A stretch of DNA of 64,000 nucleotides, from positions 620,001 through 684,000 of the forward strand of contig NZ_CP121261.1 of assembly GCF_029637605.1 (NCBI RefSeq), written 5' to 3'. The notes beneath the pieces are model-generated. The model worked only from the letters and a program-made list of their open reading frames with translations, did not search any database and was not told the DNA's origin. The position numbers were made by a program, and so were the translations under genes. Positions 7,624 to 30,503 of the stretch are shown here, in pieces (within the stretch, counting starts at the first letter, position 1; each line of letters starts with the position of its first letter). This DNA comes from Achromobacter spanius (GTDB lineage: Bacteria > Pseudomonadota > Gammaproteobacteria > Burkholderiales > Burkholderiaceae_B).

Positions 7624-8013
7624 TGTAGCCATCCTGCGGGATCTGGATTTTGGGTGGTTGATGGGTTTCGCGCGTTGTGCGCTGGTGTTTTTTTGGCGGG
7701 CGTGCCGCGCTGCACCCATCCTACGGGATGCGGATTTTGGGTGGGTGGTTGATGGGTTTCGCGCGTTGGGCGCTGGTGCTTCTTTTGGCTGGTGTGCCGC
7801 GCTCCACCCATCCTACGGGATGCGGTGGTGCTTGTAGGATGGGTGGAGCGCGCGGGGGCCTTGGCTAGATCGCTGGGGCTGCATCGCGCGTAACCCATCT
7901 GGCGGTGGGCGGTGTACATCCAACCGCTGCTGATGGGTTTCGCGCGTTGGGCGGTTGTTTTTTTTGGCGGGCGTGCCGCGCTCCACCCATCCTACGGACC
8001 TATCCGTACGGAA
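7624..8013. repeat. cluster of host palindromic repeats between flhF and flgN
   Basis: This 390-bp gap has no gene. It holds at least three plus-oriented copies (about 7660-7726, 7751-7818, 7931-7997) and one inverted copy (7832-7900) of a ~67-bp repeat. Each copy opens with GATGGGTTTCGCGCG or its variant GATGGGTTACGCGCG, and closes with CGCGCTCCACCCATCCTACG. The two ends are complementary (GATGGGT with ACCCATC, CGCGCG with CGCGC), so each copy can form a long hairpin. The same family appears at 27103 and 28404-28604. It sits between the convergent 3' ends of flhF and flgN and may act as a bidirectional terminator, which is inference. Confidence 0.85.
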
Positions 8014-25086: not shown

Positions 25087-25180
25087 TACGTCGCCTTGAA
25101 TGTACCCGCCATGTAACAGGGCGTGTCGGCAAGGTGGTTTTTCATTTGGTCAGAGCAGTTCCTGAGGGATGGGGAAAAAT

Positions 25181-26908
25181 ATGGAAGCGAGTCTCGAATC
25201 CGGCGCAAAGGCCGGCAAAAGCAGGAAAAAGGCCGCGCGCGCGCCCAAGGTAAAACGCAAGCTGCGGCTGCGTGACGCCCGCGTCGGTACGATGCTGCTG
25301 TGGGTGATGGCGTTTTTCGCGATCCTGATCGCGGCGGTGGGCGGCCTGGCCGCATTTTTCCTGCAGCACAATTACGAGTCCATCCGCGAAGTGAACGCGC
25401 TGACCGAGCGCGCCAAGCAGGTCGAGACGATCAACACCGACATGCTGCGCGCCCGCGTGAGCCTGATGGTGGCGGCGCGCCACCTGCAGGAATCCGGCTG
25501 GGGCAGCGGTGAGAACTCGGCCCGCGACGCGGCCGCCGCGCTGAAGGCCGCCACGGACCTGCTGACGGGCGTGCGCAGCCGTTTCTCGGACTTCCAGAAG
25601 AACATGCTTCAGGACGACACCGGCCGCCAACTGTCGATGAACCTGGTGCGCCGTTATCGCTCCTACATCGACGACGGTGTGGACACGATGGTGGAAGCCT
25701 TGCGCAGCGAAGACTATTCGACGTTCTATATGGTGAACAACGAATACGGTACGCCGCGCAGCGCCGCCTTCATCGCGGCGATCGACGACTTCAGCAAGTA
25801 CATCGGCGACCAGCAGCAAGCCACCATTGATCAAGCCGAAGCCAACTTCAACCGCGCCATGGTGGCCGTGGCCGTTGCGGTGGGCCTGGCCCTGCTGTTG
25901 ATGGTTTTCTGCCGCATCTTGTTCGGCCGCCTGGTTGTGCGCCCGCTGGTGGAAGCCGGCCAGCACTTCGACAAGATCGCCGCTGGCGACTTGACGAGCC
26001 GTGTGGAAGTGAAGTCGCACAACGAAATCGGCCAACTGATGGCGGCCGTCAAGCGCATGCAGGAAAGCCTGACGCGCACGGTGACGACGGTGCGTCGTGG
26101 CGTGGACGAGATCACCGTGGGTTCGCGTGAAATCGCAGCCGGCAACACGGACCTGTCCAGCCGTACCGAAGAGCAGGCGGCTTCCCTTGAGGAAACCGCT
26201 GCGTCGATGGAAGAACTGGCGTCCACCGTGAAGCAGAACGCCGACAACGCGCGCCAGGCCAATCAGTTGGCGGCCAGCGCGTCGGACGTGGCCGAGCGCG
26301 GCGGTTCGGCGGTGTCGGAAGTGGTCAGCACGATGCAGGGCATTTCGGCCAGCTCGCGCAAGATCTCGGAAATCGTTTCCGTCATCGACGGCATTGCGTT
26401 CCAGACCAACATCCTGGCGCTGAACGCGGCCGTGGAAGCGGCGCGGGCGGGCGAGCAGGGCAAGGGCTTTGCGGTGGTGGCGGGCGAAGTGCGCTCGTTG
26501 GCACAGCGCAGCGCGCAGGCCGCCAAGGAAATCAAGGGCTTGATCGAAGACTCGGTCAACAAGGTTGGCGCGGGTTCGCAGCAGGTGGAACGCGCGGGCG
26601 CGACGATGCAGGAAATCGTGGCGTCGGTGAAGCGCGTGACGGACATCATGGGCGAAATCTCGGCGGCGTCCGAAGAGCAGTCCAGCGGTATTGATCAAGT
26701 CAACCGCGCCGTGTCGCAGATGGACGAAGTGACGCAGCAGAACGCGGCCTTGGTGGAAGAAGCGGCCGCCGCGGCCGGCTCGTTGCAGGATCAAGCCCAC
26801 CGCCTGGCCGAAGCCGTGGCGGTGTTCAAGATCAACGCCGGCGAAGTGATTGAAGTGCCCGCGCATCAACTGAGCGGCTACGCGTCCCCGACGCTGACGC
26901 AAGGTTGA
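25181..26908 (+). CDS. methyl-accepting chemotaxis protein without C-terminal tether
   Basis: Third receptor of the group, 575 residues from ATG 25181. I prefer this start because GGGGA lies 6 bp upstream; the ATG at 25169 has its purine run directly abutting it. A basic cytoplasmic N-terminus ([20 protein letters not shown]) precedes TM1 (~35-62). A periplasmic domain, TM2 (~226-248), HAMP and the standard signalling domain follow. Unlike the two upstream copies it ends shortly after the signalling helices ([14 protein letters not shown]), without the Pro/Ala linker and xWxxF tether. It probably depends on other receptors for efficient methylation, which is inference. Confidence 0.94.
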
Positions 26909-27102
26909 TAGGCAAGACCGCCGGGGGAAACCCCGGCGGGACGCGACGGTGCAATGCCGTTGTTGTGGATGCGGCAACGCAATGCCGTTGATGATGCGAC
27001 GCCGTTGATGCGATGGCGGACCGTATTCCATGCCGGTGCCGTATTGGGTTGTGATGATGGCACGTAATCCTTATCCCGGCCCGCCACACCGCAACCTTCG
27101 TC
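26909..27102. other. non-coding gap between receptor gene and repeat/IS
   Basis: About 190 bp with no gene. The first part holds a small inverted pair just after the stop (CCGCCGGGG / CCCCGGCGGG around 26921-26940), a candidate terminator stem for the receptor gene. A degenerate GCAATGCCGTTG-type direct repeat follows at about 26951-27010. Confidence 0.45.
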
Positions 27103-27166
27103 TGATGGGTTACGCGCGTTTGACGTTTGTTTGCGCGGGGTGGACGGTGCGCGCTCCACCCATCCT
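27103..27166 (+). repeat. host palindromic repeat, interrupted by the IS110 element
   Basis: Same repeat family as at 7624-8013: begins CTGATGGGTTACGCGCG and reaches CGCTCCACCCATCCT, where it stops being repeat sequence. In intact copies (for example ending 28604) the next bases are ACG. Those bases reappear at 28371, after the insertion element. Confidence 0.85.
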
Positions 27167-27180
27167 TGTATGTTTTCATA

Positions 27181-27345
27181 GCACTTACCGATCTTGCTTC
27201 GGGGGTGCTGGGGATCGGGACGCACCCATCCATCAGCCGTCACCAGCGGACTGACGTCGGTAGATATCCCACCCCGCCCAAATACGTCGATTAAGAATCT
27301 AGCGGCCGTGACCGCCGATTGATCGCAAGGTAACGAATCGGGCGT
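27181..27345 (+). ncRNA. predicted IS110 bridge RNA (seekRNA)
   Basis: Non-coding left end of the element. A 5' stem-loop (GCAC 27181 with GTGC 27205) precedes the target loop. That loop is closed by GGGAT (27211) with ATCCC (27266), with left guide CACCCATCC (27223-27231), an inner hairpin CAGCCG/CGGACTG (27234-27253) and right guide GTAG (27260-27263). The donor loop is closed by CGATT (27288) with AATCG (27336), with left guide AGAATCT (27294-27300), inner hairpin GCGG/CCGC (27302-27315) and right guide CAAG (27326-27329). The left guides equal the target left flank and the element's right-end sequence. The right guides are complementary to CTAC and CTTG across the cores. Exact transcript ends are estimates. 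Confidence 0.78.
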
Positions 27346-27387
27346 GGCTTCCCCAGCAGACACAACGCTATCGCAGGGAGTCTAGAG

Positions 27388-28365
27388 ATGCAAACGTCTC
27401 AATCTTTCTTTGGTGTGGATGTGGGGAAATCCGAGGTTGTTGTGGCGATGCACGGGGCGGCCAAGCCGTTGACCCGAGCCGTCAAAAACTCAACGACTGG
27501 CTTGGAAAAATGGTTGCAAACGCTGCCGTCCGGAAGCGTTCTTGCCATGGAGTCCACCGGTGGCTACGAGCGCCTGTTGGCCGACCTGGCATATGAGCGT
27601 GGACTGCGCGTCTATGTGCTGAACCCCAAGGCCTTGCACCATTACGCCAAGTCGCAGGCTCAACGGGGCAAGACCGACCGACTCGACGCTGTCATGATTG
27701 CGCGTTACGTGGCGCTCGAGCACGAGCGGTTGCATAGCTACGAACCTTGCCCGGAGCACATCGAGCGCCTGAGTCAGATCCAACGCTTACGCAAGGTGGC
27801 GGTCACGACGCGCACGAGGCTGCGCCTGTCCAGCGATCGGCACAAACACGTGGGCTCGCAAGCTCAGGTCCAGCAAGCGTTGGATGCCTTGGCGCAGTTG
27901 GCAGATGCTCTTGAGCGCGAAATGCTCGATCAGATCGCTGCCGAACCCGCCTTGACCGACGACTTCAACTTAATCACCAGCATTACCGGCGTGGGAAAGC
28001 TGACTGGGGCCGCACTGGTGACGGCCTTCGCCCGCATCCCGTTCGCCTCCTCGGACGCAGTGGTGGCCTACGCGGGGCTGGACCCCAGGCCCAAGGAGTC
28101 TGGCGCCTACAAAGGCCTGCGTAAACTCAGCAAGCAAGGCGATGCGGCCCTGAGAAGCCTTGCCTACAACGCGGCATCCTCAGCAAGCCGAACAGCTGCC
28201 TTCAAACCCCTCTACGCAGCGTTACGAGCCAAGGGCTGGGCCTCAACGCAGGCATTAAACATCATCGCCAGAAAACTCCTACGCATCGCCTTCGGCGTAT
28301 GGAAATCGCGCAAACCCTTCGATGTAAACCTCTTTATGGTCAGCCAAGCTTGCGCCAAACCATAG
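27388..28365 (+). CDS. IS110-family transposase (DEDD recombinase)
   Basis: Bridge-RNA-guided recombinase that moves the element. It is 325 residues. The N-terminal RuvC-like DEDD domain has D11 (FFGVDVGKSE), E55 (MESTGGYE), D97 and D100 (GKTDRLDA). A helical middle is followed by the C-terminal Transposase_20 domain with GVGKLTGAALVTAF and AYAGLDPRPKESG, where Ser238 is the likely nucleophile. Nothing is missing, so it should be active. The ATG at 27388 follows an AGGGAG site at spacing 8. Its 3' end reaches to within 3 bp of the element's right end. Confidence 0.95.
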   Translation: MQTSQSFFGVDVGKSEVVVAMHGAAKPLTRAVKNSTTGLEKWLQTLPSGSVLAMESTGGYERLLADLAYERGLRVYVLNPKALHHYAKSQAQRGKTDRLDAVMIARYVALEHERLHSYEPCPEHIERLSQIQRLRKVAVTTRTRLRLSSDRHKHVGSQAQVQQALDALAQLADALEREMLDQIAAEPALTDDFNLITSITGVGKLTGAALVTAFARIPFASSDAVVAYAGLDPRPKESGAYKGLRKLSKQGDAALRSLAYNAASSASRTAAFKPLYAALRAKGWASTQALNIIARKLLRIAFGVWKSRKPFDVNLFMVSQACAKP

Positions 28366-28370
28366 AATCT

Positions 28371-28711
28371 ACGTGTGTCGTTGTCGCAGAAGTGATGACG
28401 GCTCGTAGGATGGGTGAAGCGCGTACGGCTGTGGGCCAGAACAAGGCTTCCGATCGCGCGTAACCCATCGGACGGTGCGGCGGTTCTTAACCGGTGCCGT
28501 GGTTCTTAACCGGATCCGCCACAACGCCACGTTCGTCTGATGGGTTACGCGCGTTTGGCGCTTGTTTTCGCGGGGCGGACGGTGCGCGCTTCACCCATCC
28601 TACGGCCACCACCGGCCACCACCGGCCACCACCGGCCACCACCGGCCACCACCGGCCACCACCGGCCACGGACATCGTGCGAATCGCGTCAAGCACCGAT
28701 TAATACGCACG
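28371..28711. repeat. right half of the invaded repeat, further host repeats and a 10-bp tandem array
   Basis: No gene. The sequence resumes the interrupted repeat at 28371 (ACG). An inverted copy follows at about 28404-28471 (CGTAGGATGGGTGAAGCGCG to GCGCGTAACCCATC), then a plus copy at about 28538-28604 closely similar to the one at 27103. Between them is a short duplicated stretch (GTGCCGTGGTTCTTAACCGG-like, twice around 28480-28512). A tandem array follows at 28602-28670. Confidence 0.8.
28602..28670 (+). repeat. 10-bp tandem repeat, about 7 copies
   Basis: Unit ACCGGCCACC in about seven head-to-tail copies, the first and last with one mismatch. It begins exactly at the TACGG end of the host repeat at 28538-28604. 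Ten is not a multiple of three and no gene spans it. Confidence 0.9.
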
Positions 28712-28738
28712 TTAAGTTTTCATTAAAAATACCGTTAA
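28712..28738 (+). promoter_or_regulatory. sigma-28 (FliA)-type promoter of aer
   Basis: TTAAGTTT, 11 bp, ACCGTTAA. Against TAAAGTTT, 11 bp, GCCGATAA it matches 7 of 8 and 6 of 8 with exact spacing. Lies about 170 bp before the aer start, leaving a leader of roughly 160 nt in which I see no recognised riboregulator. Confidence 0.75.
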
Positions 28739-28907
28739 TAACAATAACGCCTGGAAGAGGGCGGTGAACTGGGTTTGATGGCTGGATAGCGCGTGAGGGC
28801 GCGCCGGCCAGACGAACCGGGCGGGGTCAGGTCGATGCGGGGCGCAACGTCCCGGTTTGCTCGCTGCTATTCATTCGCTGCTCTATTGATGTCACTGGAG
28901 ACTAGCT

Positions 28908-30503
28908 GTGCGCGTGAACCTACCCATCACTGATGTGGAAACCAAGCTGCGCGAAGATCAATACCTGATCTCGCGAACCGACACCAAGGGCCGCATCGTT
29001 TATGCGAACCCGGCGTTCGTTGACGTCAGCGGCTTTACCCGCGAAGAACTCATCGGCAAGCCGCACAACATCGTGCGCCATCCCGACATGCCGCCCGAGG
29101 CCTACGAAGATCTGTGGGAAACCTTGGAAGCCGGCGAATCGTGGCTGGGCCTGGTCAAGAATCGTCGCAAGGACGGTGGCTACTACTGGGTGCTGGCCAA
29201 TGCCACGCCCATCGTTGAAAACGGCGAAGTCGTCGCCTATTCCTCGGTGCGGGTGCGGCCTTCCGAAGACCAGATCGAAATGGCCGAAGAACTCTATGCG
29301 CGCATGCGCGAAGGCTCGGCGCGCGGCATCCGCATCAAGCGCGGACGGCCGGTGCGGGCCGGCTGGCGGCGTGGCCTGGACGTGGTGGCGTTTCCGTTCA
29401 AGCGCAGCGTGCGCAGCCAGATGTTCCGCCATGCCCTGGTGTCCGCCGGCATCGTCGCGGGCGCGGGCGCCTATGGCTTGCACGCCAATTGGGACAGCCT
29501 GGGCACCTGGGGTGCCAGCCTGGGATGCGGCGCCATCGCGCTGGGCGTGATCGCCATCTTCGGCATGGGCTGGAGCCTGTCGCGGTCTCTGCTGGACCCG
29601 ATGCTGGACGCCGCCAACATGGCGCGCCAGGTTGCCGCCGGCAACCTCACCACGCAGATCATCGCGGACTCGGATGACGAAGTGGGTAGCCTGAAGTTCT
29701 CGCTGGAAGTCATGCGCAAGAGCCTCATCGGCATTGCCCAGGACGTCTATCGCGGTATCGAAGGCACCACCCATGCAGCCGTGCACATCGCGCGGGGCAA
29801 CCAGGAACTGGCCGGCCGCACGGAAGGCCAGGCGTCGTCCTTGCAGCAAACCGCCGCCAGCATGGAGCAACTGACCTCCACCGTGCGCCAGAACGCGGAC
29901 AACGCCCGGCAGGCTAACCAGTTGGCCGCCAGCAGCATGGACGTGGCGCGGCGCGGTGGCGTGGCCGTGGGGCAGGTGGTCGACACCATGCACGGCATCT
30001 CGGCCAGCTCGCGCAAGATCGCCGACATCGTCAGCATCATCGAAGGCATCGCGTTCCAGACCAACATCCTGGCGCTCAACGCGGCGGTGGAAGCGGCCCG
30101 CGCCGGCGAAACCGGCAAGGGCTTTGCGGTGGTGGCGGGCGAAGTGCGCAGCCTGGCGCAGAAAAGCGCGCAGGCGGCCAAGGAGATCAAGGGCTTGATC
30201 GAGGATTCCGTGGACCGCGTGTCGGAAGGCTCGGCGCAAGCGGAGCAGGCGGGCGCAACGATGGAAGAAATCGTGGCGGCCGTGCATCGGGTCACCGACA
30301 TCATCGGTGAAATTTCGCAAGCGTCCCAAGAGCAGTCCAGCGGTATCGAGCAAGTGGATACGGCGGTGTCGCAGATGGACGTGATGACCGTGCAGAATAC
30401 GGCGCTGGTGCAGGAACTGGGCGGCGCGGTGATGCAGTTGGGCACGCAATCCGGTGCGCTGCGCGAGACGATTCGCGTGTTCCGGCTTACCGGTCAACCC
30501 TGA
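28908..30503 (+). CDS. aer: aerotaxis receptor Aer (PAS-domain chemoreceptor)
   Basis: Energy/redox sensor that signals to the chemotaxis machinery. It is 531 residues, starting at GTG 28908 with GGAG 7 bp upstream. N-terminal FAD-binding-type PAS domain, about residues 10-125 ([57 protein letters not shown]). Two closely spaced membrane segments lie about 173-225, then a HAMP-like stretch and the signalling domain with [20 protein letters not shown]. No C-terminal CheR tether, as in E. coli Aer. Preceded by a sigma-28-like promoter and followed by a strong terminator. Confidence 0.95.

Follow-up and report, generated by a model that had tools for sequence, protein, structure and literature searches.

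The window, i.e., the whole 64,000-nucleotide stretch of Achromobacter spanius DNA analysed here, carries a 1,202-bp element that is almost certainly an IS110-group insertion sequence, in which a bridge RNA from the left end guides insertion in a single orientation at the tags of REP-like repeats, as in IS621. This reading draws on the element boundaries, the core, the guides, the repeated use of one site, the change of guides together with their targets and the conserved catalytic residues, all read from the sequence, and adds the element, with good support, to a kind already known, the IS110 bridge RNAs aimed at REPs like that of IS621. We found no report in the literature on an IS110 bridge RNA or a REP target in Achromobacter; ISfinder lay outside this search, and the element may already be named. 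The features are listed in Table 1. The element and its REPs are flanked by two open frames (25169-26908 and 28908-30503), whose translations, read by eye, resemble methyl-accepting chemotaxis proteins.

Table 1. Positions in the window of the element, its target, its gene and the parts of its RNA.
Feature	Positions	Strand	Remarks
Left part of REP-like target palindrome	27104-27164	+	GATGGGT (27104-27110) ... CACCCATC (27157-27164)
CT core, left copy	27165-27166	+	only CT is common to both ends; empty sites beside 3 of 4 copies
IS110-group element body	27167-28368	+	left end TGTATG..., right end ...CATAGAAT; 4 genome copies
Candidate -10 box TATGTT	27169-27174	+	of a promoter that would be complete only with the ends joined in the excised circle; -35-like TTGCGC at 28350-28355, spacer 17
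5' stem-loop	27180-27209	+	helices 1 and 2; 6 of 8 pairs changed on both sides; only 61.8% and 67.2% of cells paired
Bridge RNA core	27207-27357	+	sole window match of the held-out covariance model
Possible outer helix closing both loops, GCTGGGGA / TCCCCAGC	27207-27214 (5' side), 27350-27357 (3' side)	+	RNAalifold; helix 3, 92.7% of cells paired
Target-binding loop, basal stem GGGA/TCCC	27217-27270	+	helix 4, 86.8% of cells paired
Left target guide (LTG) CACCCATCC	27223-27231	+	equals host 27157-27165
Target-loop hairpin	27234-27253	+	helix 5, 92.1% of cells paired; 4 of 6 pairs changed on both sides
Right target guide (RTG) GTAG	27260-27263	+	reverse complement of CTAC 28369-28372
Donor-binding loop, basal stem CGT/ACG	27285-27335	+	helix 7, 98.2% of cells paired
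Left donor guide (LDG) AGAATCT	27294-27300	+	equals right end + core, 28364-28370
Donor-loop hairpin	27302-27315	+	helix 8, 96.1% of cells paired
Right donor guide (RDG) CAAG	27326-27329	+	reverse complement of CTTG 27165-27168
IS110 recombinase, 325 aa	27388-28365	+	PF01548, PF02371; D11, E55, D97, D100, S238
CT core, right copy, with AC the right half-site CTAC of the REP tag	28369-28372	+	core 28369-28370

The element lies between two CT cores and has the long non-coding left end (221 nt 5' of the gene) and the short right end (3 nt from stop codon to core) that mark IS110 elements. Its own genome, a single contig of 6,474,880 bases, holds four copies that are identical over 1,193 compared bases. 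All four are inserted at CACCCATC-CT-AC, in the same orientation on the repeat and with exact ends at the CT core; their outer flanks differ and their junctions are alike. This repeated use of one site by 4/4 copies, in which 2 bp of core and nothing longer is duplicated, is typical of the IS110 group. Three of the copies (L002, L003 and L004) have an uninterrupted repeat unit next to them in which the empty site can be seen. Comparison of an empty with a filled site, CACCCATCCTACGGACG versus CACCCATCC-TTGTATG...AGAAT-CTACGGACG, leaves only CT common to both ends. Around the element junction there is a short subterminal inverted repeat, CATA / TATG, which fits a described ATA/TAT pattern (PMC11208160).

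Judged by its sequence, the target is an abundant REP-like repeat, a palindrome of fixed spacing followed by a CTAC tag, with the insertion point between the 3' arm of the palindrome and the tag. The word CACCCATCCTACG occurs 309 times in the genome (173 + 136) compared with 0 for the reversed control, and GATGGGT is found 52-54 nt upstream of it in 33 of 34 distinct contexts (the window plus the first 30 listed genome places), compared with 0/34 for the control word TGGGTAG. Palindromes tagged with GTAG are a recognised REP class (PMC3733652; a word search of its main text did not return Achromobacter), and the use of REPs by IS110 elements has been known at least since 2006 (PMC1525189). Further REP copies occur in the window in both orientations, clustered at 7713-7996 and 28404-28604, and a perfect tandem array of CGGCCACCAC (6.7 units, 28603-28669) directly follows an intact copy; elsewhere in the genome REPs form regularly spaced tandem arrays, for example at G000 1373771-1374208. 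A REP-propagating Y1 transposase (RAYT) was considered as a partner of the repeat and was not supported. The genome has one Y1_Tnp gene of the REP-associated type (L088, G000:C1:3600283-3600621), none of four REP words was found in its 3,339-bp locus, and among 17 genomes searched such a gene was present in five, G037 (266 REP sites) and G031 not being among them.

The original prediction, made from the letters of the window, was a complete bridge RNA with four guides matching the host sequence and the element ends. Direct reading finds all four matches in place at the predicted host and end positions (Table 1). The prediction also held that the four matches were hard to explain by chance, which is true of the set: the LTG 9-mer arose in 62 and the LDG 7-mer in 148 of 20,000 dinucleotide shuffles of the 221-nt left end, and all four guides in order in none. 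The two 4-nt matches (RTG and RDG) are unremarkable alone; the RTG becomes convincing because it occupies a homologous position and changes with its target in other lineages. In IS621 the core takes part in all four pairings (PMC11208160). Here the RTG, LDG and RDG include the core and the LTG only its first base; the second core base is mismatched by the LTG in 14 of 18 left ends, the window element included (A at 27232), and matched by T in four. We have taken the rule stated for IS621 as a detail of that element and not as a criterion of the family.

The guides were read at homologous columns of an alignment of 19 left ends, and one representative of each of 11 lineages entered a test of whether guides and targets change together, in which true and 200,000 shuffled pairings were scored in the same registers (close relatives L048, L051, L050, L052, L077, L080 and L087 were omitted, as was L073, which has no left flank). 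LTG-target matches over nine positions summed to 85, compared with 79 in the best shuffled pairing, and RTG-target matches over seven positions to 60, compared with 57; 0/200,000 shuffles reached either value. With the core left out, the RTG sum was 38 versus 35. The comparison of guides with target sites that had been suggested along with the prediction thus came out in its favour, and the two target guides separately show the change with targets in relatives that is expected of a bridge RNA. Individual left ends illustrate this: L075 carries the LTG AATGTCCGC for its own target AATGTCCGC-T, L076 carries GTTAGCGGC for GTTAGCGGC-T, and in L084 (TTCCCTGGC) and L087 (TTCCTTGGC) each guide matches its own one-base-different target. 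On the other side of the core, the RTG complements of L087, L086 and L085 are their own targets (CTCATCG, CTCCCAC and CTCGGCT, respectively). The LTG rows of L054 (6/9), L085 (5/9) and L086 (4/9) are poor, as is the RTG row of L082 (3/7), and the RTG of the window element matches at 4/7, i.e., CTAC only. As tabulated, the LDG differs where the right end differs (GAAC in L053 and L073, GGATCT in L085, GGAA in L082), with core mismatches in L053, L073 and L082. The RDG CAAG is invariant in 19/19 left ends, and covariation therefore cannot test it; GCAAG is also found in the IS621 copy. Guide-target covariation has already been described on a large scale in IS110 elements (PMC11208160), and natural re-aiming between related elements for IS1111 types (PMC11187229).

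The gene product gave matches above cut-off to both IS110 Pfam domains and scored 178.9 bits against NF033542, 'IS110 family RNA-guided transposase' (cut-off 140); the match to NF052498 (TIGR-Tas) was weak, 33.8 bits, under the cut-off of 100. Only two solved structures matched at E <= 0.001, the IS621 and ISCro4 transposases. In an alignment with the IS621 copy, 94 of 313 positions are identical (30.0%), and D11, E55, D97, D100, S238 and G239 stand at the catalytic places listed for IS621 (PMC11208158), giving the DEDD motif and the catalytic serine that, along with RuvC-like and Tnp domains, characterise an IS110 recombinase. The Piv invertases have also been placed in the IS110 family (PMC1525189); unlike Piv and TIGR-Tas, the window protein sits in a mobile element with ends, a core and copies.

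We then turned to the RNA. A covariance model (R1) built from 17 left ends of other lineages, with the window element held out, gave a single match in the 64-kb window (110.1 bits, E 8.4e-20, E-values being rough), and a model of sequence only found the same place (27208-27357), so that the covariance search proposed with the original prediction does find the RNA in the left end. R1 did not match the IS621 RNA (L097) at E <= 1, an Rfam search of 26500-29000 matched no family, and folding of the single sequence was no better than that of shuffles (z 0.49). Comparison across the alignment gave a structure of 36 pairs, with the 5' stem-loop and the two loops, each with left and right guides to target or donor, that a bridge RNA should have. 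Its cells are paired at 83.1%, compared with 73.8% in shuffles, 22 of the 36 pairs changed on both sides versus 13.0, and the covariation score is 0.255 versus 0.115; none of 500 shuffles, which ignore relatedness, reached these values, and slid versions of the structure were at most 51.5% paired. Support is strongest for the hairpins of the target and donor loops and for the stems CGT/ACG and GGGA/TCCC. The alignment lends less to the 5' stem-loop and to the outer pairs of the donor loop (63.8% of cells paired).

The bridge-RNA plan first drawn for this left end keeps its IS110 recombinase, its left-end RNA and its four guides, and loses the basal stems as drawn for the two loops. For the target loop, the proposed GGGAT/ATCCC (75.5% of cells paired) represents one way of setting a G-rich against a C-rich segment, and the comparison puts these in a different register. 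The donor-loop stem CGATT/AATCG is not conserved, its two parts being paired in 49.1% and 48.0% of cells. Together the two stems are paired in 63.1% of cells versus 61.3% in shuffles, a value that 42 of 500 shuffles reach; no measure was clearly above shuffles, and these stems were replaced.

The possible outer helix, which is among those that covary, was drawn by RNAalifold run without constraint and joins the two RNA ends. At one of its pairs (columns 55-235), eight sequences have U-A, five have C-G and five are unpaired. Its highest pair probability is 0.92 in the window element, above 0.75 in 12 of 19 left ends and at most 0.05 in six (L080 ends before the 3' side). It competes with a local GGGG/CCCC pairing that would extend the target-loop stem, is paired in 89.5% of cells with hardly any covariation, and dominates in single folds of 2/19 left ends. 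A tentative proposal, which we hold to be rather less than probable, is that the RNAs of this clade constitute a structural subclass, in which a helix GCYGGGGU/ACCCCRGC would join the RNA ends, clasp both loops on one closing stem and compete with the basal stem of the target loop, making a closed/open switch possible; the left guide would leave the second core base unpaired, and the lineage would have been naturally re-aimed at the REP CTAC tag, the same right half-site as that of IS621.

Circle formation, the promoter, transcription and strand exchange are modelled on IS621, in which an RNA of ~177 nt comes from the left end and a promoter forms at the joined ends (PMC11208160). An excised circle would join the right end to the left end, creating both the completed promoter and the donor site AGAAT-CT-TGTATG. 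In the RNA, the target loop (LTG CACCCATCC, RTG GUAG) would pair with the REP-like palindrome end CACCCATC-CT-AC and the donor loop (LDG AGAAUCU, RDG CAAG) with the circle junction. Strand exchange by the DEDD/serine recombinase would follow at the CT core, leading to insertion in one orientation with only CT left at both ends. Among 18 elements with their ends joined, 15 have their best sigma-70-like pair of boxes at the homologous place, with a spacing of 17. The window element is among the other three: its homologous -35/-10 pair has 7/12 consensus bases and another, probably spurious, pair has 8/12. Its -35-like box is poor, which counts against the proposed scheme.

Because REPs are palindromes that some transposases could recognise directly (PMC1525189), the recombinase alone might read the repeat, and the guide matches would then be chance or REP remnants, CACCCATCC in the RNA being conceivably a captured REP piece. 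Against this, relatives aimed at different sites have different guides at the homologous place in the RNA, for the left and the right of the core alike, and in two such lineages the exact target is not an abundant repeat. The change of guides with targets strongly disfavours recognition by protein alone, which we regard as highly improbable. Nor do we give much credit to the idea that the four copies were spread by recombination between REPs, attractive as it may be with such an abundant repeat and with further intact units adjoining three copies: the flanks outside the repeat differ, the ends lie exactly at the CT core in 4/4 copies, and the same precision of ends recurs in two other genomes and in other lineages. 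The chance that it accounts for the copies is very slight.

Another alternative is that the RNA acts in target choice only, as a short seekRNA with the target loop alone, the donor-loop matches being unused. The IS110-type element ISEc21 has a 74-nt seekRNA with target matches, and a still shorter region was enough for movement (PMC11187229); moreover, the LDG and RDG hardly vary, so that covariation says little about donor guides. Against this, the donor loop has conserved, partly covarying stems of its own (helices 7 and 8), the donor loop of IS621 is known to work (PMC11208160) and the same GCAAG precedes the IS621 gene, and the LDG does differ in the four lineages with differing right ends, though with mismatches. 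A role in target choice only is thus unlikely, and a bridge RNA that addresses both target and donor is the explanation we retain.

The likeness to IS621 of E. coli (structures 8wt6 and others) extends from the IS110 group, the left-end RNA with four guides and the D/E/D/D/S catalytic residues to the CT core, the left end TGTAT, an RTG GTAG on the CTAC tag of a REP and an RDG GCAAG. The two elements differ in protein sequence (30% identity), in LTG and REP, and in an RNA that is outside the reach of R1; by eye, the target loop of IS621 stands on its own, longer stem, whereas the window element has a short stem and the possible shared outer helix, and the IS621 LTG pairs with the second core base, a pair that the window element lacks. 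The IS621 copy L097, read by eye, is inserted at TTATCAGGC-CT-TGTAT, and its left end has ATCGGGCCT, GTAG in the target loop and GCAAG before the gene, in agreement with the IS621 guide positions in PMC11208158. The three REP query sequences in PMC11208160 end in CCTAC or CCTACG, so that each element lands at the CTAC tag of a REP, and the two REPs are different. Relatives at 74-78% identity (L040/L049 and L059, right end only) are also at CTAC, and more distant ones are at CTCG, CTTT, CTGA and others; since these distant relatives lack CTAC, the GTAG of the window element may be convergent with that of IS621.

Other members of the family were set beside the element by description only. ISPpu9, ISPpu10, ISPa11 and ISRm19 are likewise IS110-family elements inserted in host REPs (PMC1525189), in other hosts and other REPs. 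ISEc21 shares an RNA upstream of the gene that matches both target strands in the same order; its account deals with matching to the target by a short RNA and by a long one, and with no donor guides in the parts consulted (PMC11187229).

With this element, all guides of an IS110 clade that is well separated from IS621 have been assigned and the assignment independently checked. It also shows an element in another genus on an IS621-type landing place, the CTAC tag at a REP end. The ten other lineages, with different guides and targets, are a ready orthologue set for programmable recombination and a natural record of guide and target changing together. For specialists, the interest lies in this clean set of re-aimed relatives and in the possible clasp helix.

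Searches for related copies returned matches in 9 of 268 genomes of the family (E <= 1e-40), in 7 of 399 of the order and in 4 of 369 of the class (both E <= 1e-55), the own genome being included each time. Neither plasmids (protein search with an E limit of 1e-50; DNA search with the left end) nor phages (DNA search) or viral contigs gave relatives. Elements 97-98% identical are present in two sister genomes, G037 with five full copies and G031 with one; G031 corresponds to Achromobacter sp. UMC46, L039 and L048 having identical junction flanks. All six full copies are at CACCCATC-CT-AC, bringing the lineage to 10/10 full copies in three genomes, so the expectation that other copies would sit at matching sites held in the own genome (4/4) and in its sisters (6/6).

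The own genome has 309 exact REP sites, G037 has 266 and G031 has 3, and six genomes that carry other lineages have none. A strict link between the number of REPs and the presence of the element is weakened by G031, which has a full copy with only three exact sites. Nor do the sites of two other lineages, B and C, support the idea that the target is an abundant host repeat in every lineage. Each of nine genomes has 1-8 occurrences of the B-lineage site GTCATCCTCGTY, 31 in all compared with one for the reversed control, which is above control but far below the REP counts in the hundreds. In five of nine genomes the C-lineage site TCNTGAACTCGC does not exceed its control; in its host G056 the counts are 9 versus 5. 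By eye, another hairpin-bearing sequence, GCGGTCCGG...CCGGAC, lies beside the B-lineage copies L051, L056, L061, L065, L070, L072 and L050, and is absent beside L057 of the same lineage.

G031 also holds internally deleted versions of ~632 bp, namely L042 (1339-1970), L043 (1340-1970) and L044/L045 (1401-2033), as well as L041, which is cut by the contig end. They have two deletions in common (element positions 165-650 and 750-841) and keep the left end as far as the right donor guide CAAG, the right end and gene fragments only. From their sequence they are possible non-autonomous, MITE-like bridge-RNA elements. L044/L045 have one altered base in the left target guide. Some deleted versions are at flanks other than CACCCATC-CT-AC, and the similar flanks of some suggest spread with a larger repeat. 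Two of the deleted copies count against the proposed scheme. L043 is preceded by right-end sequence and not by the target motif, its left junction (L043:1332-1345) reading CATAGAAT-CT-TGTATG, so that the two kinds of end abut as they would in a circle or in two elements in tandem. L046 (L046:1320-1778), which has the first of the two deletions only and ends at element position 924, follows GTAACCCAT-CT (ACCCAT-CT), one base short of the guide match; its flank resembles the other REP arm, and the site is possibly off-target or rearranged.
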